From Tomocerus qinae (taxonomy: Eukaryota > Arthropoda > Collembola > Entomobryomorpha > Tomoceridae), in assembly GCA_020055645.1 (NCBI GenBank), contig CM034546.1, positions 60,760,001 to 60,824,000 of the forward strand: a stretch of DNA of 64,000 nucleotides. Reading direction: 5' to 3'. How positions within the stretch are numbered: position 1 is the first letter of the stretch; every line of letters starts with the position of its first letter. The notes under the pieces were generated by a model. That model did not search any database. It worked only from the letters and a program-made list of their open reading frames with translations, and was not told the origin of the DNA. Both the position numbers and the translations under genes were made by a program. Positions 1 to 45,702 of this stretch are shown here, in pieces.

Positions 1-3000
1 AGGGTGGGGCCTATGTTTACCAGGGTGGGGCCAATGTCTACCATGGTGGGGCCAGAGTCTACCAGGGTGGGGCCAATGTCTACCAGGGTGGGGCCTATGT
101 TTACCAGGGTGGGGCCATTGTCTACCAGGGTGGGGCCTATGTTTACCAGGGTGGGGCCAATGTCTACCATGGTGGGGCCAGAGTCTACCAGGGTGGGGCC
201 AATGTCTACCAGGGTGGGGCCTATGTTTACCAGGGTGGGGCCGATGTCTACCAGTGTGGGGCAAATGTCTACCAGGGTGGAGCCAATGTCTACCAGGGTG
301 GAGCCAATGTCTACCAGGGTGGGGTCTATGTTTACCAGGGTGGGGCCAATGTCTACCAGGGTGGGGCCAATGTCTACCAGGTTGGGGACTATTTTTACCA
401 GGGTGGGGCTGATGTCTACCAGGGTGGGGCCAATGTCTAACAGGGTAGGGCTAATGTCTACCAGGGTGGGGCCTATGTTTACCAGGGTGGGGCCGATGTC
501 TACCAGGGTGGGGCCAATGTCTACCAGGGTGGAGCCAATGTCTACCAGGGTGGAGCCAATGTCTACCAGGGTGGGGTCTATGTTTACCAGGGTGGGGCTA
601 ATGTCTACTAGGGTGGGGACTATTTTTACCAGGGTGGGGCTGATGTCTACCAGGGTGGGGCCAATGTCTAACAGGGTAGGGCCAATGTCTACCAGGGTGG
701 GGCCAATGTCTACCAGGGTGGGGCCTATGTTTACCAGGGTGGGGCCATTGTCTACCAGGGTGGGGCCTATGTTTACCAGGGTGGGGCCTATGTTTACCAG
801 GGTGGGGCCAATGTCTACCATGGTGGGGCCAGAGTCTACCAGGGTGGGGCCAATGTCTACCAGGGTGGGGCCTATGTTTACCAGGGTGGGGCCATTGTCT
901 ACCAGGGTGGGGCCTATGTTTACCAGGGTGGGGCCAATGTCTACCAGGGTGGGGCCTATGTTTACCAGGGTGGGGCCGATGTCTACCAGTGTGGGGCAAA
1001 TGTCTACCAGGGTGGAGCCAATGTCTACCAGGGTGGAGCCAATGTCTACCAGGGTGGGGTCTATGTTTACCAGGGTGGGGCCAATGTCTACCAGGGTGGG
1101 GCCAATGTCTACCAGGTTGGGGACTATTTTTACCAGGGTGGGGCTGATGTCTACCAGGGTGGGGCCAATGTCTAACAGGGTAGGGCTAATGTCTACCAGG
1201 GTGGGGCCTATGTTTAACAGGGTGGGGCCAATGTCTACCAGGGTGGGGCCAATGTCTACCAGGGTGGGGCCAATGTCTACCAGGGTGGGGCCTATGTCTA
1301 CCAGGGTGGGGCCTATGTTTACCAGGGTGGGGCCGATGTCTACCAGGGTGGGGCCAATGTCTACCAGGGTGGAGCCAATGTCTACCAGGGTGGAGCCAAT
1401 GTCTACCAGGGTGGGGTCTATGTTTACCAGGGTGGGGCTAATGTCTACTAGGGTGGGGACTATTTTTACCAGGGTGGGGCTGATGTCTACCAGGGTGGGG
1501 CCAATGTCTAACAGGGTGGGGCCTATGTTTACCAGGGTGGGGCCATTGTCTACCAGGGTGGGGCATATGTTTACCAGGGTGGGGCCTATGTTTACCAGGG
1601 TGGGGCCAATGTCTACCATGGTGGGGCCAGAGTCTACCAGGGTGGGGCCAATGTCTACCAGGGTGGGGCCTATGTTTACCAGGGTGGGGCCATTGTCTAC
1701 CAGGGTGGGGCCTATGTTTACCAGGGTGGGGCCAATGTCTACCATGGTGGGGCCAGAGTCTACCAGGGTGGGGCCAATGTCTACCAGGGTGGGGCCTATG
1801 TTTACCAGGGTGGGGCCGATGTCTACCAGTGTGGGGCAAATGTCTACCAGGGTGGAGCCAATGTCTACCAGGGTGGAGCCAATGTCTACCAGGGTGGGGT
1901 CTATGTTTACCAGGGTGGGGCCAATGTCTACCAGGGTGGGGCCAATGTCTACCAGGTTGGGGACTATTTTCACCAGGGTGGGGCTGATGTCTACCAGGGT
2001 GGGGCCAATGTCTAACAGGGTAGGGCTAATGTCTACCAGGGTGGGGCCTATGTTTAACAGGGTGGGGCCAATGTCTACCAGGGTGGGGCCAATGTCTACC
2101 AGGGTGGGGCCAATGTCTACCAGGGTGGGGCCTATGTCTACCAGGGTGGGGCCTATGTTTACCAGGGTGGGGCCGATGTCTACCAGGGTGGGGCCAATGT
2201 CTACCAGGGTGGAGCCAATGTCTACCAGGGTGGAGCCAATGTCTACCAGGGTGGGGTCTATGTTTACCAGGGTGGGGTCAATGTCAACCAATGGGGGGGG
2301 CTATGTTTACCAGGGTGGGGCTAATGTCAACCAGGGTGGGGCCTGTGTTTACCAGGGTGGGGCGAATGTCTACCAGGGTGGCACCAATGTCTACCAGGGT
2401 GGGGCAAATGTCTACCAGTGTGGTGTCAATGTCTACCAGGGTGGGGTTAATGTCAACTAAGGGGGGGGGGGCTTTGTTTACCAGGGCGGGGCTAATGTCA
2501 ACCAGGGTGGGGCCTACGTTTACCAGGGTGGGGCCAATGTCTACCAGGGTGGGGGCAATGTCTACCAGGATGGGGCTAATGTCTACCAGGGTGGGGCCCA
2601 TGTTTACCAGGTTTGGGCCAATGTCTACCAGGGTGAGGCCGATGTCTACCAGGGGGGGCCAATTTCTACCAGGGTGGGGCCGATGTCTACCAGGGTGGGG
2701 CGAATGTCTACCAGGGTGAGGCGAATGTCTACCAGGGTGGGGCCTATGTTTACCAGGGTGGGGTCAATGTCAACCAATGGGGGGGGCTATGTTTACCAGG
2801 GTGGGGCTAATGTCAACCAGGGTGGGGCTAATGTCAACCAGGGCGGGGCTAATGTCAACCAGGGTGGAGCCAATGTCTACCAGGGTGGGGGCAATGTCTA
2901 CCAGGATGGGGCTAATGTCTACCAGGGTGGGGCCCATGTTTACCAGGTTTGGGCCAATGTCTACTAGGGTGGGACCAATGTCTACCAGGGTGGGGCCTAT

Positions 3001-4730
3001 GTTTACCAGGGTGGGGCCAATGTCTACCAGGGTGGGGCCAATGTCTACCAGGGTGAGGCAAATGTCTACCAGGGCGGGGCCAATGTCTACCAGGGTGGGG
3101 CCAATGTCTATCAGGGTGGGGCCAATGTCCACCAGGGTGGGGCCTATGTTTACCAGGGTGAGGCCTATATTTACCAGGGTGGGGCCAATTTCTACCAGGG
3201 TGGGGCCTATGGTTACCAGGGTGGGTCAACGTCTACCAGGGTGGGGCAAATGTCTACCAGTGTGGTGTCAATGTCTACCAGGGTGGGGTTAATGTCAACT
3301 AAGGGGGGGGGGGCTTTGTTTACCAGGGCGGGGCTAATGTCAACCAGGGTGGGGCCTACGTTTACCAGGGTGGGGCCAATGTCTACCAGGGTGGGGGCAA
3401 TGTCTACCAGGATGGGGCTAATGTCTACCAGGGTGGGGCCCATGTTTACCAGGTTTGGGCCAATGTCTACCAGGGTGAGGCCGATGTCTACCAGGGGGGG
3501 GCCAATTTCTACCAGGGTGGGGCCGATGTCTACCAGGGTGAGGTGAATGTCTACCAGGGTGGGGCCTATGTTTACCAGGGTGGGGCAAATGTCTACCAGG
3601 GCGGGGCCAATGTCTACCAGGGTGGGGCCAATGTCTACCAGGGTGGGGCCTATGTTTAACAGGGTGGGGCCTATGTTTACTAGGGTGGGGCCAATGTCTA
3701 CCAGGGTGGGGCCAATGTCTACCAGGGTGAGGCAAATGTCTACCAGGGCGGGGCCAATGTCTACCAGGGTGGGGCCAATGTCTATCAGGGTGGGGCCAAT
3801 GTCCACCAGGGTGGGGCCTATGTTTACCAGGGTGAGGCCTATTTTTACCAGGGTGGGGCCAATTTCTACCAGGGTGGGGCCTATGTTTACCAGGGTGGGT
3901 CAACGTCTACCAGGGTGGGGCAAATGTCTACCAGTGTGGTGTCAATGTCTACCAGGGTGGGGTTAATGTCAACTAAGGGGGGGGGGGCTTTGTTTACCAG
4001 GGCGGGGCTAATGTCAACCAGGGTGGGGCCTACGTTTACCAGGGTGGGGCCTACGTTTACCAGGGTGGGGCCAATGTCTACTAGGGTGGGGGCAATGTCT
4101 ACCAGGATGGGGCTAATGTCTACCAGGGTGGGGCCCATGTTTACCAGGTTTGGGCCAATGTCTACCAGGGTGGGGCCAATGTCTTTCAGGGTGGGGCCAA
4201 TCCAATGTCTACCATGGTGGGGCCAATGTCTATCAGGGTAAGGCCAATGTCTACCAGGGTGGGGCCTATGTTTAACAGGGTGGGGCCTATGTTTACCAGG
4301 GTGGGGCCGATGTCTACCAGGGGGGGGCCAATGTCTACCATGGTGGGGCCAATGTCTATCAGGGTGGGGCCCATGTCCACCAGGGTGGGCCTATGTTTAC
4401 CAGGGTGGGGCCCATGTTTACCAGGGTGGGGCCGATGTCTACCAGGGGGGGCCAATGTCTACCAGGGTGGGGCCTATGTTTACCAGGGTGGGTCAACGTC
4501 TACCAGGGTGGGGCAAATGTCTACCAGTGTGGTGTCAATGTCTACCAGGGTGGGGTCAATGTCAACCAAGGGGGGGGGCTATGTTTACCAGGGTTGGGCT
4601 AATGTCAACCAGGGTGGGGCTAATGTCAACCAGGGCGGGGCTAATGTCAACCAGGGTGGGGCCTACGTTTACCAGGGTGGGGCCTACGTTTACCAGGGTG
4701 GGGCCAATGTCTACCAGGGTGGGGCCTAAG
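1..4730 (+). repeat. Satellite array, left arm (21-bp unit, G-rich on +)
   Basis: Uninterrupted tandem repeats with a period of 21 bp, each unit holding an AGGGTGGGG core followed by a variable part ending in ATGTCTACC or ATGTTTACC. Variant units recur in a fixed order, giving a higher-order repeat of about 840 bp (40 units): the block at 598-999 reappears at 1438-1839, and a block near 2401 reappears near 3243. Because 21 is a multiple of 3, several frames stay open for long distances, the longest from 4 to 2460. The usual differences between units are non-synonymous in that frame (TCT against TTT), so no protein is supported. The array runs off the left edge of the window. From about 2280 poly-G expansions and 1-2 base slips appear. 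Confidence 0.97.
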
Positions 4731-7480
4731 GTAAACAGAGTTGGGCCTAAGGTAAATATGGTGAAGCTTTAGTGAAACTGATGATTACTGGTGAAGTGGT
4801 ATGTTTAACTGGGTAGGGCCTAAAATAAATAGAATGGGGCCTTACTTAAACAGTAAAGGCGTAATGTCTAACAGGGTTGGGCTGTTGTTAAACAGTATCA
4901 GTATAAGAGGTATGATTAACAGGGTGGGGCCAAAAATAAACAGGGTGGGGCCTTTGTTAAACAGTACAGGCGGTATGTTTAACAGGGTGGGGCCTAATAT
5001 AAACAGGGTGAAGCCTTAGTTAAACAGTACAGGCGGTATGTTTAACAGGGTGGGGCCTAAGGTAAACAGGGTGGGGCCTTAGCTAAATATCGTGAATATT
5101 TAGTAAAACAGTACAGACGGTATGTTTAACATGGTGGGGCCTTTGTTAAACAGTAAATGCGGTATGCTTACCTTACACCCCACCTAGTTAATTATTACAC
5201 CTGTACTGTTTTACTAAGGCCTCACCCTGTTTGTTTTAGACCCCACCCTGTTAAAAAATCACCGCCTGCATACCGTCTGTACTGTTTTACAAAGGCCCCA
5301 CCTTGTTTATCTTTGGCCCAACCCTGTGAAAACATACCGCCTGTACTGTATAACAAAGGCCCCACGTTGTTTTTTTAGACCCCACTTTGTTAAACATACC
5401 TCCTGTTCTGTTTAACCTAGGCTACACCCTGTTTACTTTACGCCACACGCTCTTAAACATTAAGCCTCTACTGTTTAACTAAGACCTTCCCTGTTTATCT
5501 TCAGCCCCACACCGTTAAGCATACCTTCTGTACTTTTTAAAAATGCCCCCTGCTTAAATAAGGCCCCGCGCTGTTAAACGTAACCCTTGTACTTTATAAC
5601 ACTCTGTTTAACCAAGGCTCCACTCTGTTTAACTAAGGCCTCACCCTGTTTAACTAAGGCCCCACCCTGTTTAACTAAGGCCCCACCCTATTAAGCATTA
5701 CGCCTATACTATTTAAATGAGGACCAACCCTGTTTACCTAAGGCCCAACCCTGTTAAACATAACCATTGTACTTTTTAACTAAGGCCTCACCCTGTTTAC
5801 CTAAGGCCTCACCCTGTTTACCTAAGGCCCCACCCTGTTAAACATTACGCCTGTACTTTTTTTAATGCACCATTTAGTTAAGCATAACGTTAGTACTGTT
5901 TAATTAAGGCCCACCCTCTTTTACATAACGCCCCATCCCGTTTAACTAAGGCCCCTCCCTGTTTACCTAAGGCTCCATTAGGTTTAAGTATAGGACCACC
6001 CTGTTTAACTAACGCCCCACTCTGTTAAACATTACGCCTGTACTGTTTTCCTAAATCCCCACCCTGTTAAACATTACGACAGTACTGTTTTACTAAATCC
6101 CCAACATGTTAACTAAAGCCCCACCCTGTTAAACATTACGCCTGTACTGTCCTATTAAACCCCACAATGATAAACATAACCCTTGTACTGTTTAACTAAG
6201 GTCACTCTCTGTTTAACAAAGGCCCAAACCATATTTAATAAGGCCCTAACCATTTTAACGAAGGCCCCTTACTGTTTACCTAAGACCCCATCACGTTTAA
6301 ATAACGCTCCACCCTGTTTACCTAAGGCCCCAACTTGTTAACCATAAACATTGTACTTTATAACTAAGGCCCATCCTGTTTAACTAAGCTCTCACCCAGT
6401 TAAGCATTACGACTGTACTGTTTTACAAAAGGCCCCACTTTGCTTAACTAAGGCCCCACCCTGTTAAACATTACGACTGTACTGTTTTTCTAAAGCCCCA
6501 CCCTGTTTAAAAAAGGCCACACCATGTTAAACATTATCCCTGTACTGTTTTACTAATACCCATCCTGTTTAACTAAAGCCACACCCTGTTTTACTAAGGC
6601 CCCACCCTGTTTACCTAATGCCCCACCCTGTTTACCTAAGCCCCCACCCTGTAAAACATTGTGCCTGTACTGTTTCACCAAGGCCCCACACTGTTAAACA
6701 TTACGACTGTACTGTTTTACTAAAGCCCCTCCGTGTTTAATTAAGGCCCCACCCTATAAATCTAAGGTCCCACCCTATTTATCTTAAGCCCTAACCATTA
6801 TAACTAAGGAGCTAATCTGTGTAATTGGGGCCCCACCCTGTTTACCTAAGGCCCCACCCTGTTAAACATTGTGCATGTACTGTTTTACCAAGGCCCCACA
6901 CTGTTAAACATTACAACTGTACTGTTTTACTAAAGCCCCTCCTTGTTTAATTAAGGCCCCCCATGCTAAACATTACCCCTGTACTGTTTTACTAATCACA
7001 TCCTGTTTAACTAAGGCCACACCCTGTTTTAGTAAGGCCCCACCCTGTTTACCTAAGGCCCCACCCTGTTAAACATTGTGCCCAAACTGTTTTTCCAAGG
7101 CCCCACACTGTTAAACATTACTACTGTACTGTTTTACTAAAGCCCCTCCCTGTTTCATTAAGGCCCTAATCTGTTAAACATTACGACTGTACTGTTTTAC
7201 TAAAACCCCACCCTGTTTAATTAAGGCCACACCCTGTTAAACATTACCCCTGTACTGTTTTACTAAAACCCATCCTGTTTAACTAAGGCCTTACCCTGTT
7301 AAACATTACGCCTGCACAGTTTTATTAAGGCCCGACCCTATTTAACTAAGGCCACAACCTGTTTAAATAAGTCGCCACCCTGTTTACCTAAGGCCCCACC
7401 CTGTTAAACATTGTGCCTGTACTGTTTTACTAAAGCCCCTCCGTGTTTAATTAAGGCCCAACCCTATTTAACTAAGGCCC
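4731..7480. repeat. Degenerate core of the satellite with orientation switch
   Basis: Diverged relatives of the flanking 21-bp unit, with spacings of about 21 and 42 bp. To about 5160 the G-rich strand is + (GGGTGGGGCC followed by TTAAACAG). From about 5178 the C-rich strand is + (CCCCACCCTGTTTAAC, and CCCTGTTAAACATTACGCCTG). The switch lies at about 5161-5178. Units differ far more from each other here than in either outer arm, the reverse of the usual pattern, in which array edges are the most diverged. Confidence 0.9.
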
Positions 7481-10275
7481 CTCCCTGGTAGACATTGGCC
7501 CCACCCTATTTAACTAAGGCCCCTCCCTAGTAGATATTGGCCCCCCCCTGGTAGACATTGGCCCCACCCTGGTAAATATAGGCCCCACCGTGGTAGACAT
7601 TGGCCCCACCCTGGTAGACATTGGCCCTACCCTGGTAGACATTGGCCCCACCCTGGTAGACATTGGCCCCACCCTGGTAGACATTGGCCCCACCCTGGTA
7701 AACATTGGCCCCGCCCTGGTAGACATTTGCCCCTCCCTGTTAGACAGAGGCCCCACCCTGGTAGAAATTGGCCACACACTGGTAGACATTGGCCCCACCC
7801 TGGTAGATGTTGGCCCCACCCTGGTAAACATAGGCCCCATCCTGGTAGACATTGGCCCCACCCTGGTAAACATTGGCCCCACCCCCTGGTAGACATCGGC
7901 CCCACCCTGGTAAACGTAGGCCCCACCCTGGTAAACATAGGCCCCACCCTGGTAGACATTGGCCCCCCCTGGTAGAGATTGGCCCCACCCTGGTAGGCAT
8001 AGGCCCCACCCTGGTAGACATTGGCCCCACCCTGTTAAACATAGGCCTCACCCTGGTAGACATTGGCCCCACCCTGGTAAACATAGGCCCCACCCTGGTA
8101 GACATTGGCCCCACCCTGGTAAACATAGGCCCCACCCTGGTAAACATTGGCCCCACCCTGGTAGATATTGGCCCCACCCTGGTAAACATTGGCCCCACCC
8201 TAATATACATTGGCCCCACCCTGGTAGACATCGGCCCCACCCTGGTAGACATCGGCCCCACCCTAGTAAGTATAGGCCCCACCTCAGTAGACATTGGCCC
8301 CACCCTGGTAGACATTGGCCCCACCCTGGTAAACATAGGCCCCACCCTGGTAGACATTGGCCCCACCCTGGTAAACATAGACCCCACCCTGGTAGACATT
8401 GGCTCCACCCTGGTAGACATTGGCTCCACCCTGGTAGACATTTGCCCCACCCTGGTATACATAGGCCCCACCCTGGTAGACATTGGCCCTACCCTGTTAG
8501 ACATTGGCCCCACCCTGGTAGACATCAGCCCCACCCTGGTAAAAATAGTCCCCACCCTAGTAGACATTAGCCCCACCCTGGTAAACATAGACCCCACCCT
8601 GGTAGACATTGGCTCCACCCTGGTAGACATTGGCTCCACCCTGGTAGACATTGGCCCCACCCTGGTAGACATCGGCCCCACCCTGGTAAACATAGGCCCC
8701 ACCCTGGTAGACATAGGCCCCACCCTGGTAGACATTGGCCCCACCCTGGTAGACATTGGCCCCACCCTGGTAGACATTGGCCCCACCCTGTTAAACATAG
8801 GCCCCACCCTGGTAGACATTAGCCCTACCCTGTTAGACATTGGCCCCACCCTGGTAGACATCAGCCCCACCCTGGTAAAAATAGTCCCCAACCTGGTAGA
8901 CATTGGCCCCACCCTGGTAGACATTGGCCCCACCCTGGTAAACATAGACCCCACCCTGGTAGACATTGGCTCCACCCTGGTAGACATTGGCTCCACCCTG
9001 GTAGACATTTGCCCCACCCTGGTAGACATTGGCCCCACCCTGGTAAACATAGGCCCCACCCTGGTAGACATTGGCCCCACCCTGGTAGACATTGGCCCCA
9101 CCCTGTTAAACATAGGCCCCACCCTGGTAGACATTGGCCCCACCCTGGTAGACATTGGCCCCACCCTGGTAGACATTGGCCCCACCCTGGTAGACATTGG
9201 CCCCACCCTGGTAAACATAGGCCCCACCCTGGTAAACATTGGCCCCACCCTGGTAGACATTGGCCCCACCCTGGTAAACATAGGCCCCACTCTGGTGGAC
9301 ATTGGCCCTACCCTGATAGACATTGGCCTCACCCAGGTAGACATTGGCCCCACCCTGTTAAACATAGGCCCCACCCTGGTAGACATTGGCCCCACCATGG
9401 TAGACTCTGGCCCCACCATGGTAGACATTGGCCCCACCCTGGTAAACATAGGCCCCACCCTGGTAGACATTGGCCCCACCCTGGTAAACATAGGCCCCAC
9501 CCTGGTAGACATTGGCCCTACCCTGTTAGACATTGGCCCCACCCTGGTAGACATTGGCCCCACCATGGTAGACTCTGGCCCCACCATGGTAGACATTGGC
9601 CCCACCCTGGTAAACATAGGCCCCACCCTGGTAGACATTGGCCCCACCCTGGTAGACATAGGCCCCACACTGGTAGACATTGGCCCCACCCAGGTAAACA
9701 TAGGCCCCACCCTGGTAGACATTGGCCCCACCCTGGTAAACATAGGCCCCACCCTGGTAGACATTGGCCCCACCCTGGTAAACATTGGCCCCACCCTGGT
9801 AGACATTGGCCCCACCCTGGTAAACATAGGCCCCACCCTGGTAGACATTGGCCCCACCCTGGTAGACATTGGCCCCACCCTGTTAAACATAGGCCCCACC
9901 CTGGTAAACATTGGCCCCACCCTGGTAGACATTGGCCCCACCCTGGTAAACATAGGCCCCACCCTGGTAGACATTGGCCCCACCCTGGTAGACATTGGCC
10001 CCACCCTGGTAAACATAGGCCCCACCCTGGTAGACATTGGCCCCACCCTGGTAAACATAGGCCCCACCCTGGTAGACATTGGCCCCACCCTGGTAGACAT
10101 TGGCCCCACCCTGGTAAACATAGGCCCCACCCTGGTAGACATTGACCCCACCCTGGTAGACATTGACCCCACCCTGGTAGACATTGGTCCCACCCTGGTA
10201 AACATAGGCCCCACCCTGGAAGATATTGGCCCCTCCCTGGTAGACATTGGCCCCACCCTGGTAGACACTGGTACC
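7481..10275 (-). repeat. Satellite array, right arm (same unit, inverted)
   Basis: Homogenised 21-bp units as in the left arm, but reverse-complemented. The array ends abruptly after about 10270. The right arm carries the same rare variants in the same order as the left. For example, the variant with GGGGACTATTTT next to ACTAGGGTGG at 601-630 appears reversed at about 8540-8570, and the paired GGCTCCACC units at 8395-8450, 8605-8650 and 8965-9010 mirror paired GGAGCC units at about 280-310 and 1010-1050. The arms therefore share a history. A long open frame (7740-10268, -) has the same repeating peptide as the left arm and is judged non-coding. Confidence 0.96.
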
Positions 10276-10416
10276 TGCGTGAAAATTTATATATAAAAAT
10301 ATTATTTCCACCCTGTACGTATTGAGCATGGTGGGGCGGGTGGGGCGCCCCACCCTAGGGAGGGGCTTTTTAGTCTGGCCGTCATTATAGCACTTAAATC
10401 AAGTTAATAAATAAGA
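10276..10416. other. Satellite boundary and short palindrome
   Basis: AT-rich sequence just outside the array. Positions 10338-10355 form a perfect 18-bp GC-rich palindrome (GGGTGGGGC followed by GCCCCACCC), which looks like two half-units of the satellite joined head to head. Confidence 0.6.
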
Positions 10417-10472
10417 AATTCATGACTCTCGAGGTTAACTAACTGAGAAGTTAACCTCGAGAGTCATGAATT
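10417..10472. repeat. Perfect 24-bp inverted repeat (hairpin)
   Basis: Arms 10417-10440 and 10449-10472 are exact reverse complements with an 8-base loop. The stem contains a CTCGAG site and GTTAAC. It could form a stable cruciform or RNA hairpin. It is isolated, with no recognised gene beside it. Confidence 0.9.
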
Positions 10473-11290
10473 ACATTTGAAATTGTATACCATAAGTTTC
10501 TGAATTATTAGTTTTAGGATTATATTTATACAGAACTTAGGTGGCAAGATTTCATGACAGAAAAACACCGTAAACAAGTCACTTTTCTTAACATCAATAT
10601 ACAAGACTCAAATATCAGTAACAAAAAAGAATCAATATACATTTTAGTTGTGTAGCTTACAATAATAGCCAAGTAATTACATGTCCTTATTATAATAAAC
10701 TAAATAGTTATAAATTGTCCGCGGCAACTGCCCTTTTTTATCTGCCCCCTTCTCATCCTTTATTATTAATAATCCTAAGGGTACACATAAGCCTTACATT
10801 CTATAGTAAAGACAGATGTTATTAGTATTACATTTCTAATAACAAGAATTAGGTGTGAAATAGAGCAATGTGTCTACTCATTTTGAAAGAATGGGATTAG
10901 GGATTGGTAAGTGCTTAGATCACTTACTTGAAACTATATTAAGCAAACATCCATAAAATTAAGTAACCTACTTAACTGTTACAAAATAACTATACAGTTT
11001 AAGATGTAAAATAACCTTAATTTGAAATATATATAACAAGTATAAATATATGTAAATATATATAAATAATGGAATATAACAAGCAATATATAAAACGGGA
11101 TAATCATTCATTATTACCTACAAAAAATTAGCAAATTATTTTCTTCACAAAATTGAAAATGTTCTCGAATGTCTTAATTGTTCACAGTTACAGTATTATC
11201 ATATCATAATAATTATATTATTCGTCCCTACATTCTGACGTTGTTGCGGGTTGTATTTTCATATCTACTTGTCTGTTTAAATGTTATTTT
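10473..11290. other. Intergenic, AT-rich
   Basis: No coding signal was recognised. There are runs of TATATA-type low-complexity sequence around 11020-11090. Confidence 0.6.
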
Positions 11291-21144: not shown

Positions 21145-22010
21145 TAAAATAGTGGTAGCTAATTAAAGTAACAGAGCTACTTAAAATGAAGAGGTGAAAA
21201 TGACGGAATATTTAAGATGAGGGGAATATTTAATATAGAGATTATTTAAAATGACAAGAATATTTAAAATGACGAGGTTATTTAAAATTACGAGATTTTT
21301 AAAAATGACATTTATAGATTTAAAACAACGAGGTTATTTAAAATGACGTCTATTTAAAATGTAGCAAATGAGGATTTAGTTTCAAAGAGGGTGACATTGT
21401 GCGTCTGCTTACAATAATTCCTTTATAGACGTTACTAAAAATAATACCAACTAGAATCCAAAAGCCAAAAGTGATAAAAAGTCTTATTTTTTCTATATTT
21501 TGACAAAAATTAATACCCTGCTCAATAAATGACGAGGTTATTTAACACGATGGGGTTATTTAAAATGACAGGGTTATTTAACACGATGGGGTTATTTAAA
21601 ATGACGGGGTTAATTCGGGGTTATTTAAAACGTCGGGGTTATTTCGGGGTTATTTAAAACGTCGGGGTTATTTCGGGGTTATTTAAAATGACGGGGTCAT
21701 TTCGGGGTTATTTAAAATGATGGGGTTGTTTAAAATGAAGGGGTTATTTAAAATGACGGGGTTATTTAAAATGACGGGGTTATTTAAAATGACGGGGTTA
21801 TTTAAAATGACTGGGTTATTTAAAATAACGGGGTTATTTAAAATAACGGGGGTATTTAAAATAACGGGGTTATTTAAAATAACGGTGCTATTTAAAACGA
21901 TGGGGTTATTTAAGATGATGGGCTTATTTAAAGTGACGTCTATTTACAATGATGAGGTAATTGAAAATGACGCGAGGTGATGTAAAATGACGGGGTGATT
22001 TAAAATTATA
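21145..22010 (+). repeat. 18-bp minisatellite
   Basis: Tandem units of about 18 bp containing TTATTTAAAATGACGGGG. The array is diverged at both ends and most regular at 21700-21900. Because 18 is a multiple of 3, a frame of 87 codons stays open (21717-21980), but it is repeat peptide only. Confidence 0.93.
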
Positions 22011-32455: not shown

Positions 32456-34894
32456 TTACCCAATGTTCTGTTCCCTAATTTGCATGTCAACTCTGGCTCT
32501 CTTGTATATCCTTATATTTTGCAATGACTGTCGGTCCTTCATGTTCCATCTACAAAGCTTCAAGTGTGTAAAACTATGAACACCTTTTTTACAAAATGTG
32601 GATATAAAGTTTTTGATGCGCTTAAGTGCCCTGTAAATATTACGCATAAAAGTTACAATCACAATTCTTAAGGGTACTCGGTTTTCCCAAATAAATGAGG
32701 CTATCCATATCAGTGCGATGCTCAGACTGATGTGGAATATAGTGGCTATATTGGAGTTGTAAAATGTCACAGGCCGAGGCAAAACTCTTCCCCAACAAGT
32801 TCTACATTTGGTGAAATTGCGTGCCTGAAAATGTTGTAACCATACTTGAAATATTCCTGAGTGACTTAGAGCCGTCAATCTCTTCTTTAGAAATGGAGTG
32901 AGTAAGGGGACGTTTACATTTTCAATGTAAGTGATGACCGATGTGGGTAAAAACGAAGTTTCGTGTGTACTATGATACAACTTTTTAGATGGCTTGAAAC
33001 CGCCTACGTTTGGATCCCAGTGAGAGTCATTGAGCAGTCGATGAAGTTCAATGTTAGAAAGAATAAGAGCGGAATTGTTGCATTTGGAAATCCAATTTAG
33101 TGGATGGCTGTAATAAAAACCAGGAGGATATCGATAAATTTTTTTGAATTTGTTGTAGATCCTAGCCAGTTTAGGAAATCGTTTTTTATCTCTGTAACCC
33201 CTAAGCTCCCACAGAAATAGACTTCTTTCTTCTGCAATTTGAAACGAACTAAGAGCTTTCTCGACCATGGTTCGGTTATGATTTGCAAAATAACAATCTT
33301 CGATTGTGTTCTCACATTGCCAGCATTTCTCGGTATAAAATGATGAATTCTTTGCCCTTTTCTTATTGCAATAGTATTCTTTCATCGTCGATTTTTGATT
33401 ATATTGACTCATATAGAAAGGTTCAAACTCATTTGGGGTGCCGTCAACCCTAAGAGACCCGAAAACTCTAATATCAGATAAATTGACCAAATGTTCAATG
33501 GATTCAATTTGTTTCACCGGCCGTGGTTCAACCAAATCTGTAATAACAATTCCTTTATATCCATTTGTCAATACAATAAGCATTAACAGCAGAGGACCGA
33601 TCACAATTTTGACCCAGAATCTTTTTTCTGCTGATGATGACAACGAGTAGCTGACTTCCAGCGCATATGCATAGCAGATCATCAGAAATGGAATGCTGCT
33701 TTCATTTTCTTTCCAAAATGTGACACCGTGGACGAAAGAAATCACAGAGAATAGAGTAATCACAATAGCCAGCCAAGCATAAGGTTGAAATGGTCGTATG
33801 TATCCGTAGAACGAGAGACTCTCATCTTCCAAAACGACACAAGACAGAATATTGTAAGTTGTTTCCATCGTTGGGATACTAATGACACTGGGCTCTCCAT
33901 TTATATCAACCGTATTTGAAGAATTTATTTGAAATATAAATTCTGCATGGAGCTTTGTCTGTTGTTCTCCAAAGCAAACATTTTCTCTGTGTCTTCCTAT
34001 AGTAGCGTTTGGATAGGTTTCCAAAATAATCGAGACTAGTGCGAACGATGGTGTTTTTTCTCCTTTAAAATTGATGTTTCCAAAGTAACTCTTTCGAAAT
34101 GGGGGCCCACAATATGGGCTAGATGTATATTCTTTCTTCCTAGTGTTGTATTTGTCCTTTACGTTGTATATCGTATAAGTGTCATCTACTATGACTAGTG
34201 CGCCTCTCTTAGCCACACTGCTTTTCTCAAGGAAATTTCGGATAGCCATTTGACGCAGTTGTTGCCAAAAGCAATTTTTTGCAGAACACAAGGGTACCGT
34301 TTTATATAAATAGCGTGGTTCATATTCTGGAGAAATAAAATACACATTTGGGTCGATCTTATTATTCGTGGACAACAAAAACCACGGTTTGTGCAAAAAA
34401 CAACGCTGAAGAAGAAGTGCATATTCTGTGTCGCTCGAAATCAAACTGAAACTCGTTTTCCGTTTTCTTAACACATCTCCAACGACGAAGAGATAAACTG
34501 CTGAATATTCTCCTATGAGGTACCATCGACGACTAAAGAATTTCGCTTTTTTAGAATATCTAGTAGAGAAAAACGTACTTACGTGATTAATCAGTTTAAA
34601 ATTTTCCAAATCTTTCGGTTTGAAATCGACTATTATATGAACGAAGCAAACAAAACGATTAATCTTTCCTGGTCCGGGTAACTTGGCTTTTTTCCAATCA
34701 GATCGTAAATTTGAGAGGGTATATGGAATGTCCACGATTTTCAGTGCAGTCCCTACTTTGTAATAAGGCTTCCTTGAGAAAACCAATTCAATGTAACAAT
34801 CTTTTTCCAAGCGCATCACATGTTTTAACTTCCAACCAAAAATCAACTCTGTCCAATGTAATAACACTAAAAAACAAATTTTTGAAATGAACAT
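32456..34894 (-). CDS. Divergent ionotropic receptor-like protein (IR-1), intact
   Basis: A single intronless frame of 812 aa from ATG 34894. The open frame extends further upstream to 35086, but this ATG begins a hydrophobic signal peptide (MFISKICFLVLLHWTEL) and matches the starts of the paralogues. The layout is that of IR-type glutamate receptor relatives: a ligand-binding half, first membrane helix at about 372-394, pore loop at about 398-424, second helix at about 426-448 followed by LTNGYKGIVITDL and PRPVKQIESIEHL, a long second ligand-binding half with many Cys, and a last helix at about 715-736. It is presumed to be a chemosensory channel subunit at the surface of sensory neurons, ligand unknown. 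It shares about 450 bp of near-identical 5' sequence with IR-2. Confidence 0.8.
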   Translation of the reverse strand: MFISKICFLVLLHWTELIFGWKLKHVMRLEKDCYIELVFSRKPYYKVGTALKIVDIPYTLSNLRSDWKKAKLPGPGKINRFVCFVHIIVDFKPKDLENFKLINHVSTFFSTRYSKKAKFFSRRWYLIGEYSAVYLFVVGDVLRKRKTSFSLISSDTEYALLLQRCFLHKPWFLLSTNNKIDPNVYFISPEYEPRYLYKTVPLCSAKNCFWQQLRQMAIRNFLEKSSVAKRGALVIVDDTYTIYNVKDKYNTRKKEYTSSPYCGPPFRKSYFGNINFKGEKTPSFALVSIILETYPNATIGRHRENVCFGEQQTKLHAEFIFQINSSNTVDINGEPSVISIPTMETTYNILSCVVLEDESLSFYGYIRPFQPYAWLAIVITLFSVISFVHGVTFWKENESSIPFLMICYAYALEVSYSLSSSAEKRFWVKIVIGPLLLMLIVLTNGYKGIVITDLVEPRPVKQIESIEHLVNLSDIRVFGSLRVDGTPNEFEPFYMSQYNQKSTMKEYYCNKKRAKNSSFYTEKCWQCENTIEDCYFANHNRTMVEKALSSFQIAEERSLFLWELRGYRDKKRFPKLARIYNKFKKIYRYPPGFYYSHPLNWISKCNNSALILSNIELHRLLNDSHWDPNVGGFKPSKKLYHSTHETSFLPTSVITYIENVNVPLLTPFLKKRLTALSHSGIFQVWLQHFQARNFTKCRTCWGRVLPRPVTFYNSNIATIFHISLSIALIWIASFIWENRVPLRIVIVTFMRNIYRALKRIKNFISTFCKKGVHSFTHLKLCRWNMKDRQSLQNIRIYKRARVDMQIREQNIG

Positions 34895-35240
34895 GGTGAT
34901 CTTGTGGTGCAAAAATGTTTTATTATTAATACAGTAAACTGATGTATGTAATAAAAGATCAGCAAAGACGGTTTTTCTGTTCCCTTTAATAATAACTCTT
35001 TTAAATAGTGGTTGTAGCGATACTAAATTGTTTTGTATTAAGTACTTCTGCAAATGAGCCTTAGTTGGGACGAATACTTTCAGCATTTATTGCTGACTAA
35101 AGCTGGTCATAAATAATTTATAGCAACTTCTGCAAACATTTATAGTGCTATCGACATATAAGCGAATTTGTTAGCTCTTTCGTGCTACTTTGTATAATTA
35201 TGTGTATTACTTTAGTCCTAATGGATGCCATGAGTATGAG
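34895..35240 (-). promoter_or_regulatory. Duplicated upstream block of IR-1
   Basis: Sequence upstream of IR-1 is also found upstream of the IR-2 fragment (40177-40560) and IR-3 (44071-44440). All three carry GCTCTTTCGTGC (35174-35185 here) and a TCATAAATAA-TTATAGCAACTT block. It is conserved more than expected for spacer, so it is a candidate promoter, but co-duplication alone could explain it. No TATA box was placed with confidence. Confidence 0.45.
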
Positions 35241-35705
35241 ACTTCATTTCAGCCTTTTTGGTATTAATAATAAATCATACTAGCAACCAGTACATATAAA
35301 TAGCTAGATTCATCATCAATACCTGCCAGAGTAATAACTGACTAAATATGTATTAAGAATATTAACACGAACAAATGTGTTTGGTTTTACTCTGTCCTTG
35401 CACGATCTTAAACAATTTCATGAATTAGTTACATCACTTATTTTTATTTGGTTTTTGTTCTCACGCAAGACTAAGACCATGACGGAAATATTCTTACATA
35501 TTGAGTTGAGTTGAGATACCCCATTACATACAAAAAAGTATTTCTAAGCTAAATTAAAAATTGTATTCATGATTTACTTTTTAGCGTAAAATTTTTTGTC
35601 TTCTTAGTGATATACAAAAAATGACTGTCCATTAGAAATCTAAAGAGTTGGCGACCTGTAGCCTAGGGAGGATAATTCTAGGTCCATAGTAAACTGGTGC
35701 CAATT
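35241..35705. other. Intergenic upstream of IR-1
   Basis: Includes a block with AAGAATATTAACACGAAC that also occurs near 40620 and 44590, showing that the duplicated unit reaches this far. No gene. Confidence 0.5.
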
Positions 35706-36112
35706 AATTTGTATGGCACACACATAACTTAACTTTTGTATGGAGGATTTTTTGACATTTAGTGTGACATTGTATGGTGTGTTATGGCTTACTTAAGGAA
35801 TTTGTATGGAAATAATTACTATGTATGGTGAAAAAAATATGCATAGTATACCGATACACGATATATATCACCATAGATCGGTAAATTTATTCAATATTAA
35901 TAATAATTTTGGAATGATTAGACCCAAGTAGAAATTGCACAACCATGAAAAAGAGTTTACCTATTATGTTAAATTAACTTACCTTGCATATTCAATATTG
36001 CCATACAAAGTCATAAACCGCCATACAAAGTCAAACACCACCATACAAAGTAATACTATCTATTTTTAGCTCCCCCATACAAAAGGCATGTCATGTGTGT
36101 GTCATACAAACT
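35706..36112. mobile_element. Foldback element 1 (imperfect arms of about 120 bp)
   Basis: Left arm TTTGTATGGCACACACATAA and right arm reading, reversed, TTTGTATGACACACACATGA. Both continue inward with several TTGTATGG (or CCATACAA) blocks at matching spacing (left to about 35835, right from about 36000). The arms would form a long imperfect hairpin. There is no coding capacity and no clear target duplication. Confidence 0.75.
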
Positions 36113-36370
36113 ACTGTTTTCCAATAGTAAACTATTATATTTAATCTCTAAAAAGTCAGTTTTCAAAATAATGTACATCTTTCGCTTTTTTAAATTCCAC
36201 AAACGTGAACTAAAGAATCAGTTAAAAGAACAATTTGGGGCAATTTCCGTCAATTCCATAATTCCATCTTATCTACATTTTACAATAATATTTTTCAATC
36301 AATCAGATTAGTATAATATTATGCTGATTTGAAGTTGATTGGCAAATACAGGTGCTTGTATAGAATAGTT

Positions 36371-36646
36371 ATATCGTCTGCTTAATATTACAAGGTAACA
36401 AGCCATTTTATCATGACTGCTACAAAGTAACAAACCATTTTATCATGGCTGAGACAAAGTAACAAACCATTTTATCATGACCGCGACAAAGTAACAAACC
36501 ACTGTATCAGGAGTTAGGTTTGTTACCTTGTCGCAGCCATGATAAAATGGTTTGTTACTTTGTCTCAGCCATGATAAAATGGTTTGTTACTTTGTAGCAG
36601 TCATGATAAAATGGCTTGTTACCTTGTAATATTAAGCAGACGATAT
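36371..36646. repeat. Foldback element 2, 130-bp near-perfect palindrome
   Basis: Arms 36371-36500 and 36517-36646 are reverse complements at about 127 of 130 positions, with a 16-base loop. Each arm also contains three tandem units with ACAAAGTAACAAACC and TTTTATCATG. It is the most strongly self-complementary sequence in the window. Confidence 0.93.
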
Positions 36647-37240
36647 GTTAACATTTTCAATCCCATTAACCATCTGTAGTAATGCATTACTTTACTACGA
36701 AGCTCAAGCACAGTTCTTTTACTACATACAGGAGACTGAGGAGACTTTTATACTAATATGTTTAAATTAGATGATGAATATTATTACTTATGTTAAACTG
36801 TTACTAATTGGATACTGTATGAAATGATTTATATTAAATTCATATGGTTGTATATGCAAAGAAACTATCAATACACACAATACTCTACTGATAATACTAC
36901 TAGTGTATTAATTTTATTGGCTTTTGAATATACTAAACCTACTTCACCTTATTTCTATTCCAAGAGTTATGAAAGCAAATAAACCATTTTTTAGCAGTAC
37001 ACAATAAACTACGAGATTGTTAAGTCTAACTACGTAACAGAGCCATACAACTAATTTATGTTCGTTTCATATATATTATATTAAAAACGATTATTTTATA
37101 TTTGGTTGTTTGTCTTGGAAAATTTTCCATTTTCACAATGGATTGTACAAAAATTTTGCTTTGAAAGTATTTTGCAAAATATTTATTTTTGACTTGGCTT
37201 ATTTAATTTACAATTTTATTTTAGGTAATTTTTTTGGCTT
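36647..37240. other. Intergenic 3' of IR-2
   Basis: AT-rich, no gene recognised. Positions 36130-36240 (just before foldback 2) resemble 44935-45020, a further trace of the duplicated unit. Confidence 0.5.
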
Positions 37241-39559
37241 TTAGACATGCATGTATTTTTTACAAAATGTGTATATACATTTTTTGATGCTCTTAAGTGC
37301 CCTGTAAATATTGCGGGTAAAAGTGATAATCACTAGTCCTAAGGGCATTCGATTTTCCCAAATAAATAAAGCAATCCATATTAATGCGATGCTCAGACTG
37401 ATGTGGAATATGGTGGCTATATTGGAGTTGTAAAATGTCACAGGTCGAGGCATAACTCTTCCCCAACAAGTTCTGCATTTGGTGAAATTCCGTGCCTGAA
37501 AATGGTGTAACCATACTTGTAATATTCCTGAGTGACTTAGAGCCGTCAATCTCTTCTTTAGAAATGAAGTTAGCAAGGGGACCTTTTCGTTTTTAATGTA
37601 ATTGATGATCGGTGTGGGCAAAAACGAAGTTTCGTAAGTACCATGATACAATTCTTTTGAAGGTTTGACGCCACCAACGTCTGGATTCCAGTGAGAATCG
37701 TTGAGCAGTCGATGAAGTTCAATGTTAGAAAGAATGAGGGCGGAATTGTTGCATTTGGAAATCCAATTTAGAGGATTGCTGTAATAAAATTCTGGAGGGA
37801 ATCGATAGATTTTTTTGAATTTGTTGTAGATTTTGGCCAGTTTAGGAAATTGGGTTTTATTTCCGTAACCCTTAAGCTCTCTAAGAAATAGACTGGTTGA
37901 TTCTCTAACTTGAAGCGAAGAGTATCTAATAGCTTTCTCGACCATACTTCGGTTTTGATTTGCAAAATAACAGGAGCTAACTGTGTTCTCACATTGCCAG
38001 CATTTCTCTGAATAAAATGATGAATTCTTTGCCCTTTTCTTATTGCAATAGTATTTTATCATCGTCCATTTTTGCTGAAATTCACTCAAATAGAAAGGAT
38101 CAAACTCATTCGTGCCGGCGCGACGCTGAAGAGCCCCGAAAATTCTGAAGTCAGATAAATTCATCAAATGTTCAATGGATTCAATTTGTTTCACCGGCCG
38201 TGGTTCAACCAAATCTGTAATGACAATTCCTTTGTATCCATTTGTCAATACAATAAGCATTAACAGCAGTGGACCGATCACAATTTTGATCCAGAATCTT
38301 TTTTCTGCTGCTGACGACAACGGGTAACTGACCTCCAGTGCATTCGCATAGCAAATCATCAGAAATGGAATGGTAGGTTCGTCTTTCAAAAATGTGACAC
38401 CGTGGACGAAAGAAATTACAATGAATAAAGTAATCACAATAGCCAACCAGACATAGGATTGAAATGGTCGGATATATCCGTAGAACGAGAGACTCTCATC
38501 TTCCAAAACGACACAAGACAGAAAATTGTAAGTTATTTCCGTAGTTGGGATACTAATGACACTGGGCTCTCCATTTATATCAACCGTATTTGAAGGATTA
38601 ATTTGGAAAATAAACTCTGCATGTAACTTTCTCTGCTGTCCTCTGAAGCATTCACTCTCAGGGTCTTGTCCTATAGTGGCGTTTGGAAAAGTTTCTAAAA
38701 TAATGGACGCTAGAGCGTACGAAGGTGTTTTTTCTTCTTTAAAATTGATTTTTCCAAAATAAGTCTTAAGAAGTGGCGGTCCACAATACGGGTTATATCT
38801 GAAAATTTTGTTGGTAGTTCGGTATCTTATGTAATAGTACTTATAAGCGTCATCTATTATCTTCATTGCGACGCTCTTAGCCACATTGCTGTTTTCAAGA
38901 AAATTTCGGATAGCCATTTGACGCAGTTGTTGACCAAAGCAATTGTCTGCAGAACACAAGGGTATCATTTTATATAAATAGCGTGGTTCTACCTCGGGAG
39001 AAATGAAATACACATTCTGGTCATCATTATTGTTCATGGACAACACAAACCACGGTTTGTGTGTGAAACAACGCTGAAGATATTCACTTCCCTTGTCGCT
39101 CGAAATGAAAATGGAATTCGTTTTGCGTTTTCTTAAAGTATCTCTACCGACGAGGAGATAAACTGCTGAATATTCTCCTATGAGGTACCATCGACGACTA
39201 AAGAATTTCGCTTTTTTAGAATATCTAGTAGAGAAAAACGTACTTACGTGATTAATCAGTTTAAAATTTTCCAAATCTTTCGGTTTGAAATCGACTATTA
39301 TATGAACGAAGCAAACAAAACGATTAATCTTTCCTGGTCCGGGTAACTTGGCTTTTTTCCAATCAGATCGTAAATTTGAGAGGGTATATGGAATGTCCAC
39401 GATTTTCAAGGCAGTCCCTACTTTGTAATAAGGCTTCCTTGAGAAAACCAATTCAATGTAACAATCTTTTTCCAAGCGCATCACATGTTTTAACTTCCAA
39501 CCAAAAATCAACTCTGTCCAATGTAATAACACTAAAAAACAAATTTTTGAAATGAACAT
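37241..39559 (-). CDS. Divergent ionotropic receptor-like protein (IR-2), chimeric
   Basis: An intronless frame of 772 aa from ATG 39559. The domain order is as in IR-1, with LTNGYKGIVITDL after the second helix and the last helix near the C-terminus. The first 140 or so residues are identical to IR-1, while the second ligand-binding half is closer to IR-3 (GTNEFDPFYLS). Near-identity to IR-1 starts at about 39155 and stops at 39606, only 47 bp upstream of its ATG, where a fragment of another receptor begins. It therefore appears to have received its 5' end from IR-1 and has no full upstream block of its own. It is presumed to be a channel subunit, if it is expressed. Confidence 0.75.
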   Translation of the reverse strand: MFISKICFLVLLHWTELIFGWKLKHVMRLEKDCYIELVFSRKPYYKVGTALKIVDIPYTLSNLRSDWKKAKLPGPGKINRFVCFVHIIVDFKPKDLENFKLINHVSTFFSTRYSKKAKFFSRRWYLIGEYSAVYLLVGRDTLRKRKTNSIFISSDKGSEYLQRCFTHKPWFVLSMNNNDDQNVYFISPEVEPRYLYKMIPLCSADNCFGQQLRQMAIRNFLENSNVAKSVAMKIIDDAYKYYYIRYRTTNKIFRYNPYCGPPLLKTYFGKINFKEEKTPSYALASIILETFPNATIGQDPESECFRGQQRKLHAEFIFQINPSNTVDINGEPSVISIPTTEITYNFLSCVVLEDESLSFYGYIRPFQSYVWLAIVITLFIVISFVHGVTFLKDEPTIPFLMICYANALEVSYPLSSAAEKRFWIKIVIGPLLLMLIVLTNGYKGIVITDLVEPRPVKQIESIEHLMNLSDFRIFGALQRRAGTNEFDPFYLSEFQQKWTMIKYYCNKKRAKNSSFYSEKCWQCENTVSSCYFANQNRSMVEKAIRYSSLQVRESTSLFLRELKGYGNKTQFPKLAKIYNKFKKIYRFPPEFYYSNPLNWISKCNNSALILSNIELHRLLNDSHWNPDVGGVKPSKELYHGTYETSFLPTPIINYIKNEKVPLLTSFLKKRLTALSHSGILQVWLHHFQARNFTKCRTCWGRVMPRPVTFYNSNIATIFHISLSIALIWIALFIWENRMPLGLVIITFTRNIYRALKSIKKCIYTFCKKYMHV

Positions 39560-39606
39560 GGTGATCTTGTGGTGCAAAAATGTTTTATTATTAATACAGT
39601 AAACTC

Positions 39607-40176
39607 CGGTAAAATAAAATAGACATTTGGGTCATCCTTATTGTTCTTGGACAACAAAAACCACGGTTTGTGCCTGAAACTACGCTGAATCTGATAAGCT
39701 TCACTTCTTGTGTAACTGGAAATGAAACTGGAATTCGTTTTTGGTTTTCTTAAATCATCTCCATAGGCGAAAATATAAACTGCTGAATGTTCTCCTATGA
39801 GGTACCATCGACGACTAAAGAATTTCAACCTATAACCTGTAGCTGAGAAAATTGTACTTACGTGACTAATTAGTTTTCCATTTTCAAAATCTTTCGGTTT
39901 GAAATCGACTACTATATGAACGAAGCAAACAAAACGATTAATCATTCCTGGTCCGGTCAACTTGACTTTATTCCAATCAAATTGTAAGTTTGAGAGGACA
40001 TATGGAATATCTACGATTTTCAATGCAGTCCCTACTTTGTAATAAGGATTCTTTCGGAGAATCAATTCAATGTAGCAGTCTTTCTCCATGTCCATCAAAT
40101 CTTTTAACTTCCACCCTAAAATCAACTCCGTCCCTAATGCTAACACAGAAAAACAAATAATTCTTGAAATGTTCAT
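39607..40176 (-). pseudogene. N-terminal fragment of an ionotropic receptor-like gene
   Basis: From ATG 40176 (signal peptide MNISRIICFSVLALGTEL) it codes about 190 residues related to IR-3 (RSFRHKPWFLLSKNN, DDPNVYFILPEF). It then runs at 39606 into the 5' leader of IR-2, giving a 214-codon frame that stops at 39532 after 24 unrelated residues. Membrane helices and most of the ligand-binding region are missing. It is probably the original N-terminal half of IR-2, cut off when IR-1-derived sequence was placed inside. Its frame overlaps the IR-2 start by about 28 bp in a different phase. Confidence 0.8.
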
Positions 40177-45525: not shown

Positions 45526-45533
45526 GACCTAGC

Positions 45534-45702
45534 CAGGGCCGCAGCGAGGGGGGGGGGCACCGGGGCACGTGCCCCCTCCCCCGAAATCGAGAAAAATAAA
45601 GAAATTTTTGTCTAAAATCGCTAAAATTTTCGCGCTTCGCGCGAAAATTACCTAATTTTTTCTCGGTGCCCCTCCCGAAATTTTTTTCTGGCTGCGGCCC
45701 TG
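45534..45702. mobile_element. hAT-type MITE, family B, copy 2
   Basis: A 169-bp element with perfect terminal repeats CAGGGCCGCAGC and GCTGCGGCCCTG, flanked by perfect 8-bp duplications GACCTAGC (45526-45533 and 45703-45710). The interior has GGGCACGTGCCCC and TTTTCGCGCTTCGCGCGAAAA, a core like that of family A. Confidence 0.95.

Follow-up and report, generated by a model that had tools for sequence, protein, structure and literature searches.

Transposons of the kind described here are already known, with FB, Tm1, Tetris and Galileo as examples. The account of Tm1 from root-knot nematodes (Mutator/Foldback) describes composite inverted ends in which a short motif is tandemly repeated a variable number of times, target duplications of 9 bp, a MULE transposase in one class of copies and a MITE-like class with the same ends, all of which resemble what we report; the Tm1 motif measures about 14 bp, however, compared with a 21-bp unit and arms of up to 13.4 kb here, and its transposase is given as Phantom-type with FLYWCH, whereas the frames that we scanned hold no FLYWCH match (PMC3169594). 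Tetris/DAIBAM of Drosophila virilis is likewise a foldback element as described, with tandem repeats (TIR-220) in its inverted ends, arrays of satellite size, ends common to a MITE, target duplications of 8-10 bp and a stretch common to terminal domain and unit (PMC4079207). The same account reports no autonomous copy, whereas three copies here hold a putative transposase gene; its unit is 220 bp rather than 21 bp; and its authors suggest that the element is disrupted by large TIR-220 arrays, while ours lie inside elements that have both ends and target duplications (PMC4079207). In the descriptions of Galileo, a foldback-like element of the P superfamily, long inverted ends, internal tandem repeats that vary independently and two-TIR copies without transposase recall the present family, and transposase-binding sites within the repeats are shown; a P-type transposase, 7-bp target sequences and TIRs of 18-1,250 bp in D. 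mojavensis set it apart (PMC3573991, PMC3688188).

Phantom and Rehavkus are presented as Mutator-type elements of arthropods with target duplications of 8-10 bp or 9 bp, some of them with a minisatellite, but their TIRs are given as 18-613 bp and 26-400 bp and the minisatellite is placed on one side, either downstream of the transposase ORF or ahead of the 3' TIR, rather than in both arms (PMC6446971). A survey of 322 arthropod MULEs gives a length range of 1.4-10.0 kb, and the longest TIR that it reports has 1,193 bp (PMC13359780). What is unusual in the family described below is the size of the arms, their outward layering and an outer edge that is unworn. Pipelines that require short unique TIRs are expected to class such arms as satellite DNA.

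Borders and arms of the element

The window is a stretch of 64,000 nucleotides of Tomocerus qinae (contig CM034546.1, positions 60,760,001 to 60,824,000). What a sequence-only reading had called an inverted satellite of about 10 kb is most of one 14-kb Mutator-type transposon, both inverted ends of which are swollen into arrays of a 21-base repeat; it belongs to a giant foldback MULE family and is not a free satellite. The element measures 14,285 bp, carries a non-repetitive domain of about 120 bp at both ends and is flanked by a 9-bp target duplication, TCATTATAG. The right terminal domain (10262-10381, + strand) begins with bases that are also the last part-unit of the array, ends in AGTCTGGCCG and is followed by the right copy of the duplication (10382-10390, +); its mirror copy (C1:60756097-60756216) and the left copy of the duplication (C1:60756088-60756096) lie outside the window. 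The array itself, at 1-10261, is real but incomplete in the window, as the left arm continues for 3.8 kb beyond the left edge to C1:60756216. The two arms are unequal, with 8.9 kb on the left and 5.1 kb on the right. A Pfam scan of eight open frames taken from elsewhere in the window gave no match at E 0.01.

The change of strand near 5161-5178 is confirmed by three measures. TRF places the 21-bp array on the + strand in 1-4726 and, as the reverse complement, in 7476-10271, and reports weaker repeats of the 21-bp family between the two; GC skew has one sign in the 4-5 kb bin and the opposite sign in the 5-6 kb bin; and the 10-mer AGGGTGGGGC, counted over the whole element with at most one mismatch and the outer 130 bp excluded, occurs 382 times forward and never in reverse to the left of the split, as against 0 forward and 167 reverse to its right. 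This 10-mer is exact in both the unit and the terminal domain, a match that 5 of 2,000 base-shuffled versions of the domain also attained. The proposal that the two sides present opposite G-quadruplex-prone strands is weak: neither arm holds a strict motif (loops of 1-7 nt), motifs appear only with loops of up to 15 nt, and the G4Hunter means of the arms do differ in sign (+0.78 and -0.78).

Four zones make up the array. The homogeneous outer array of the left arm (1-4726, +; TRF consensus AGGGTGGGGCCAATGTCTACC) extends out of the window to C1:60756216 and passes inward into a degenerate zone (4727-5175, +), 80% identical over 338 nt to the left inner zone of E64, a transposase-bearing copy. 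On the right, a degenerate inner zone (5178-7480, -; majority unit AGGGTGGGGCCTTAGTTAAAC), 80% identical over 1,221 nt to the same zone of E64, precedes the homogeneous outer array (7476-10261, -, by TRF and unit counts). The strand switch at 5161-5178 is the join of the two inner zones, and at this place the transposase-bearing copies have their unique core. Averaged over every 20 units, divergence from the consensus stays at 0.05-0.13 in the outer arms and reaches 0.35-0.43 across most of the centre, while the two end bins of the right inner zone give 0.20 and 0.25. These values bear out the earlier picture of homogeneous arms around a diverged centre.

The origin proposed for that centre does not hold. 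The inner zones are unequal (0.45 kb left, 2.3 kb right), and the left one aligns with the mirrored right one at 80% over 398 nt, its best mirror alignment falling at 6944-7365, in the outer part of the right zone; these two observations rule out a palindromic core, and with it growth outward from one. In pairwise local alignments, each set against 5 shuffles, the centre scores 235 and 660 against the left inner zone of E64, compared with weak scores of 56-150 against the E64 right, E2.1 left and E2.1 right inner zones. The centre of the window element is two worn, unequal inner arm zones that abut where the core is missing. The apparent reversal of normal satellite ageing stems from reading two arrays as one, since each arm is worn at its inner edge. 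Across the family, in an analysis restricted to 21-base units, the outer edge is unworn in 16 of the 16 arms examined, and five of eight elements (E18, E56, E51, E1.3 and E43) have no worn inner edge; the E64R and E2.1R cut-outs include core sequence innermost, and their innermost divergence and edge values are not satellite. In a worn-zone consensus built from 21-base units with at most 7 differences, conservation per position is 0.55-0.93 in the AGGGTGGGGC part of the unit and 0.93-0.96 in the AAC tail. As AGGGTGGGGC is not the best-kept part, purifying selection on it as a binding site finds no support in the worn zone.

Sister copies and the transposase core

A search with the terminal domain gave at least 48 matches, a lower bound from 40 scored of 80 candidates. 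Thirty are long: nine pairs account for 18 and the interior of E18 for 6, and the other 6 are unpaired. Another 16 are MITE-like (7 pairs and 2 single). Two further matches belong to a palindrome beside the window element. The domain thus occurs in at least nine long inverted pairs, and all nine paired elements checked have target duplications, of 9 bp in seven and 10 bp in two (E1.3 and E2.1, TATGTGGTGG and GTCCTTTGCT, read by eye), although the two lengths are indistinguishable at some ends. Elements that were read through measure 5.4-25.7 kb, and one known only by its ends and core 39.6 kb (E50 was read at its ends, and its core is known from the search); the duplications match across this whole range of 5.4-39.6 kb. 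All eight elements read through have the inverted 21-bp arms, with arm lengths of 1.4-13.4 kb across the family. MITEs of 129-147 bp carry the same outermost ends as the long elements, and the five of their seven pairs that were read have target duplications (9 bp in one, 10 bp in four). Long inverted repeats made of tandem repeats, together with transposase-bearing, transposase-less and MITE forms that have common ends, are the features of a foldback-type family.

Inside E18, about 95 bp of the terminal domain recur six times, five times in the right arm and once at the strand switch, so that amplification can include the outer edge. One of the six unpaired ends, at C1:14.86 Mb, was read inward; it is a solo arm, in which left-array units extend to 1.3 kb and no right arm follows within 16 kb.

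The MULE (Mutator) transposase domain PF10551 lies between the ends of three of the nine paired elements; open frames of two cores reach 37.8 and 38.0 bits against a cut-off of 27.6, and the putative gene is spread over several open frames. A DNA search with 3.6 kb of the core, in which 40 out of 235 candidates were scored, found at least three copies that match the full length of the query, and each of these lies inside paired ends; three paired elements hold the core and six are without a match to it. Target duplications in the Mutator superfamily measure 8-11 bp, and the family agrees in this and in having a transposase between its TIRs, the window copy being one without the core. Phantom transposases carry a FLYWCH zinc finger before the MULE domain, though not in every Phantom, and those of Rehavkus a PHD finger; neither domain had a match at E 0.1 in the nine larger open frames scanned from two cores. 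The unique core of E64 has no match and no detectable trace in the window element, and the descent of that element from a transposase-bearing copy therefore rests on shared ends, units and inner zone.

We regard it as very probable that the window element is a non-autonomous Mutator foldback element; it would have lost its core, had its arms amplified near the termini and had tracts copied between them. It would descend from a transposase-bearing copy that lost the core, at the strand switch (5161-5178), and part of the left inner zone, and would have been inserted by a transposase acting in trans.

We give almost no credence to a free-standing satellite, one half of which was inverted by a chromosome break before conversion homogenised the two. 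It would account for the 21-bp unit family, the single strand switch and the mirrored variants, but here inverted terminal domains and a 9-bp duplication bound the array as they would not bound an ordinary satellite, seven other loci show the layout too, every one flanked by a target duplication of its own, and three of nine copies contain a MULE transposase; the duplications at nine of nine loci refute it. Long similar arrays are hard to assemble, and a repeat wrongly joined or inverted could in principle give such a picture. That the inverted layout is an artefact of this kind is nevertheless highly improbable, because all eight elements read through share it, two sister pairs have matching swapped arms, and target duplications at all nine loci agree across 5.4-39.6 kb. 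The array lengths in the assembly may be wrong.

Probable exchange between arms

Exact inverted matches of 105 bp or more occur 13 times between the arms of the window element, and the longest of them is a 527-bp tract at 991-1517 (+) that is identical, inverted, to 8491-9017 (-). The rare variants that had been described as mirrored are indeed common to both arms, but their order is mirrored only locally and the arms are not in register: the left-arm copy of the 527-bp tract is 4,894 bp away from its end of the element, as against 1,364 bp for the right-arm copy. With units of more than 6 differences from the consensus excluded, as in every comparison of unit types here, 16 unit types are common to both arms and absent from the seven other elements, and the types that the two arms share account for 66% and 74% of their low-divergence units. 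Left and right types interleave, contrary to the pattern of two separate clades that would have refuted the sequence-only reading.

These tracts might instead have entered both arms of the foldback element from another copy. Six unpaired ends, one of them read inward, in a search with at least 48 matches leave room for a donor that is unread or lost. We judge this unlikely, as exact matches to either arm reach no more than 83 bp among the seven other elements and no more than 103 bp in the C1:14.86 Mb solo arm, and as a tract within E43 is polarised. This 390-bp tract, the longest exact match between E43L and E43R, is largely present in E1.3R, the sibling of E43L (117 bp exact, 0.70 of 42-mers), compared with a background level in E1.3L, the sibling of E43R (63 bp, 0.28), and in other type-B arms (67-72 bp, 0.21-0.32). 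The comparison supports a polarised arm-to-arm transfer in this sister element. Together with the 527-bp identity and the 16 private types, it supports the arm-to-arm conversion or exchange that the sequence-only reading had suggested.

Such transfer is not the general rule. Two sister pairs have matching but swapped arms: E56L with E51R gives 0.83 against 0.46 for E56L with E56R, and by shared 63-mers each arm of E56, E51, E1.3 and E43 is closest to the opposite-side arm of its sister insertion. The exception, by unit overlap and longest exact match, is E43L, which is nearest to its own E43R (0.67, 390 bp). Constant homogenisation was thus rejected; the arms of sister pairs keep their own identity, which argues that transfer is episodic. 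Comparison of the sister copies suggests an origin of new repeat variants close to the ends, with occasional copying from arm to arm.

Layered arms and their possible renewal

After insertion, the arms would have lengthened by tandem amplification near the termini, and tracts would then have been copied between them, most simply by repair or replication templated by the opposite, folded-back arm. The value of the arrays to the element probably lies in repeated binding sites for the transposase, by analogy with what was shown for Galileo, and their amplification is probably in part a by-product. In the right arm of E2.1, type B lies outside type A, which lies outside the worn type. We tentatively propose, as a possibility that we rate somewhat below even, that the arms renew themselves: amplification beside the terminal domain would produce new unit types that push older ones inward, and foldback pairing would template the other arm. 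If this reading is true, both ends stay fresh and matched for the transposase while the interior ages, and concerted evolution takes place within a single transposon. Because the order of unit types along the arms can be read as a succession, and because sister insertions keep older states, the family makes two things testable: how a foldback element keeps its two inverted ends alike, and whether a satellite begins inside a transposon arm.

A transposon cut by the window edge

The 21-bp array (window 1-10261, with a single strand switch near 5161-5178) borders on its right a terminal domain of about 120 bp (window 10262-10381), which is mostly non-repetitive and closes with AGTCTGGCCG. A genome search (334 Mb, 115 contigs; the window is 60760001-60824000 of contig CM034546.1, here C1) with window 10262-10500 as the query located a reverse copy of this domain about 14 kb leftward and outside the window, at C1:60756097-60756216. 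The element so delimited, E60, is 14,285 bp long, starts with CGGCCAGACT and ends with AGTCTGGCCG (both sides read), and is flanked on either side by TCATTATAG. With its inverted ends and this flanking sequence directly supporting a transposon structure, the window array therefore makes up most of a single transposon that the left window edge truncates. The sequence-only observation holds, and E60 is a giant foldback MULE, a variant of an already known kind. Just beyond its right target duplication lies a short palindrome (window 10417-10472), with a relative at C1:60656851 (85%).

Among the systems compared, those closest in build to the E60 family are Tm1 (PMC3169594), Tetris (PMC4079207) and Galileo (PMC3573991, PMC3688188). 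In kind, Tm1 comes closest: it too is a MULE, and it has foldback ends, 9-bp duplications and MITEs (PMC3169594). Minisatellites are listed in Rehavkus and aphid Phantom elements (PMC6446971), a survey of 322 arthropod MULEs gives 1,193 bp as the longest TIR (PMC13359780), and passages about giant transposons in PMC6431247 name no such element. No foldback MULE with arms of this size was found among titles and abstract openings, a scope outside which most subscription journals lie.

Three other features of the window were recorded. A foldback-like hairpin (window 36371-36646) has two 130-nt arms, 98% complementary and 16 nt apart, both with 32-bp tandem repeats; in appearance it is a scaled-down version of the E60-type design with an unrelated unit. 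On the minus strand, four tandem copies and a partial fifth of a long open frame, reaching 876 aa, are spaced about 4.3-4.7 kb apart (window 32456-48130); by eye the frames resemble a divergent ionotropic-type chemoreceptor, and Pfam returned nothing at E 0.01 for the two of them scanned. Tandem 18-bp repeats, AAATGACGGGGTTATTTA, occupy window 21197-22006, in a kilobase with strong GC skew.

Related elements and their cores

At least 48 terminal-domain matches are present in the genome, of which at least 30 are long: 18 forming nine inverted pairs, six within element E18 and six unpaired (40 of 80 candidates scored). All 30 long matches among those listed are on C1, as are all three full-length core matches; this contig makes up 42% of the assembly, and MITE-like matches occur on C2 and C5 too. 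The confinement of the long matches to C1 may be a sampling effect, half of the candidates being unscored. Eight paired elements were read through and a ninth, E50, at its ends. All nine have target duplications, of 9 bp in E60, E18, E64, E56, E51, E43 and E50 and of 10 bp in E1.3 and E2.1. The eight measure 5,384-25,675 bp, and their 21-bp-unit arms are oppositely oriented in every case. There are at least seven further, MITE-like pairs; the five read are 129-147 bp long, have the outermost domain in common and carry target duplications, 9 bp long in one and 10 bp long in the other four. A few TTAGG-like repeats lie between the ends of the MITEs; they resemble the insect telomere repeat, possibly by chance.

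The Pfam MULE domain (PF10551) has 59 genome matches, three of them inside paired ends, in the sister copies E2.1, E50 and E64. Open frames from two of these cores (the unique DNA between the arms) exceed the cut-off of 27.6 bits, scoring 37.8 and 38.0, and the seven other open frames scanned from the two gave no MULE match. In E64, a frame 3' of the MULE frame shows a weak, below-cut-off match to an Ulp1-type protease (18.6 vs 20.7 bits, E 0.0018). With 3.6 kb of E64 core DNA as the query, three whole-query matches emerged among the 40 of 235 candidates that were scored, at 100, 95 and 94% identity, and these are E2.1, E50 and E64; the remaining matches are confined to about 440 bp of the query, a stretch that is probably another repeat. 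Among the elements read through, the unique E64 core matches that of E2.1 (94% over 7.0 kb) and none of the six others. E60 is one of these six, and, having no match to this core, it is on its sequence classed as non-autonomous.

The degenerate centre and probable exchange between arms

Comparison with E64 provides insight into the centre of E60, which the sequence-only reading had taken for a reversal of satellite ageing, with growth from a palindromic core among its suggestions. In the E64 left arm a worn zone, made of units of the same family and lying about 1,490-2,690 bp from the end, separates the homogeneous outer array from the core. At 80% identity, the right half of the E60 centre aligns with this worn zone over 1,221 nt (score 660, against at most 28 in five shuffles) and the left half over 338 nt (score 235, against at most 29 in shuffles); in mirror orientation the halves also match each other, at 80% over 398 nt. 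Scores of the halves against the inner zones of E64 right, E2.1 left and E2.1 right reach just 56-150. The plainest reading is that the core was lost together with some of the left inner zone, so that two worn inner zones now adjoin. Abutting worn zones would explain a degenerate centre between homogeneous arms, so reversed ageing need not be invoked; nor is a palindromic origin supported, as the halves are unequal (0.45 kb left, 2.3 kb right) and match the E64 zone. Core and worn inner edge are both absent from five of the eight elements (E18, E56, E51, E1.3 and E43), so the family does not always include a worn zone.

The strongest part of the sequence-only reading, exchange between the arms, is supported. 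The E60 arms have 23 unit types in common (66% of low-divergence units on the left, 74% on the right), 16 of them absent from all seven other elements; such private shared types number ten in E18, three in E1.3, two in E2.1, one in E43 and none in E64, E56 or E51. The longest exact inverted match between the E60 arms is 527 bp; matches with other elements reach at most 83 bp, and that with an unpaired, solo arm at C1:14.86 Mb is 103 bp. A single palindromic duplication of one arm is ruled out, because the match is out of register from the ends. The shared block occurs several times in the left arm, where direct repeats are offset by 735-882 bp and more, and 8 of 13 inverted matches hit one right-arm stretch (window 8464-9017).

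Similarity is also arm-specific. Likeness is 0.83 between E56 left and E51 right and 0.78 between E56 right and E51 left, against 0.46 and 0.48 within E56 and E51; it is 0.73 for E1.3 left and E43 right and 0.57 for E1.3 right and E43 left, against 0.41 within E1.3, and the 105-bp ends of E1.3 right and E43 left are identical. The simplest reading is that each pair represents sister insertions in opposite orientation that kept their arm identity. The E43 arms share 0.67 and an exact 390-bp tract, present twice in the right arm. Much of this tract is found in E1.3 right, the sister of E43 left (117 bp exact, 0.70 of 42-mers), and in E1.3 left, the sister of E43 right, it stands at the level of other type-B arms (63 bp, 0.28). 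This polarity indicates that the tract most likely passed from the left to the right arm of E43 once the sisters had separated. Copying between arms appears to be genuine, but it happens in episodes.

Unit turnover and a possible mechanism

The outermost ten units differ on average by at most 1.2 of 21 bases from some other unit of their own arm in 16 of 16 arms. The innermost ten are 4.7, 3.7 and 2.8 bases away in E60 left, E60 right and E64 left and 0.0-0.8 in eleven other arms (E64 right and E2.1 right were excluded, their cut-outs including core). The right arm of E2.1 runs inward from about 180 units chiefly of type B (169 of the first 190) through 15 consecutive units of type A to the worn type and the core; its left arm has no such type A layer. 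The outer arms of E2.1 are type B and those of E64 type A, although they share a core at 94%, so unit types have been replaced in both arms more quickly than the core has changed, unless cores were exchanged between elements. Of 10 type-B arms, 9 still have one or two A-class units among their three outermost, and a run of four A units lies inside B in E56 left and E51 right. Both findings speak against a strict outermost growth point; the new unit type seems to have expanded immediately internal to the end. The outer border, too, can be amplified: in E18 (C1:18492199-18502726) about 95 bp of the terminal domain is built into the array six times in direct orientation, five times in the right arm and once at the strand switch.

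We propose that the core would be lost through internal deletion, that unequal exchange or replication slippage near the ends would amplify the arrays, and that templated repair in a folded configuration would copy sequence between arms. Conservation of individual positions across the worn zone gives no support to a binding-site role for the unit. The motif AGGGTGGGGC is common to the 21-bp unit and the terminal domain (5 of 2,000 base shuffles attain 10 bases), and in Galileo transposase-binding sites in the repeats have been demonstrated (PMC3688188). On these two grounds, the arrays may act as repeated transposase-binding sites.
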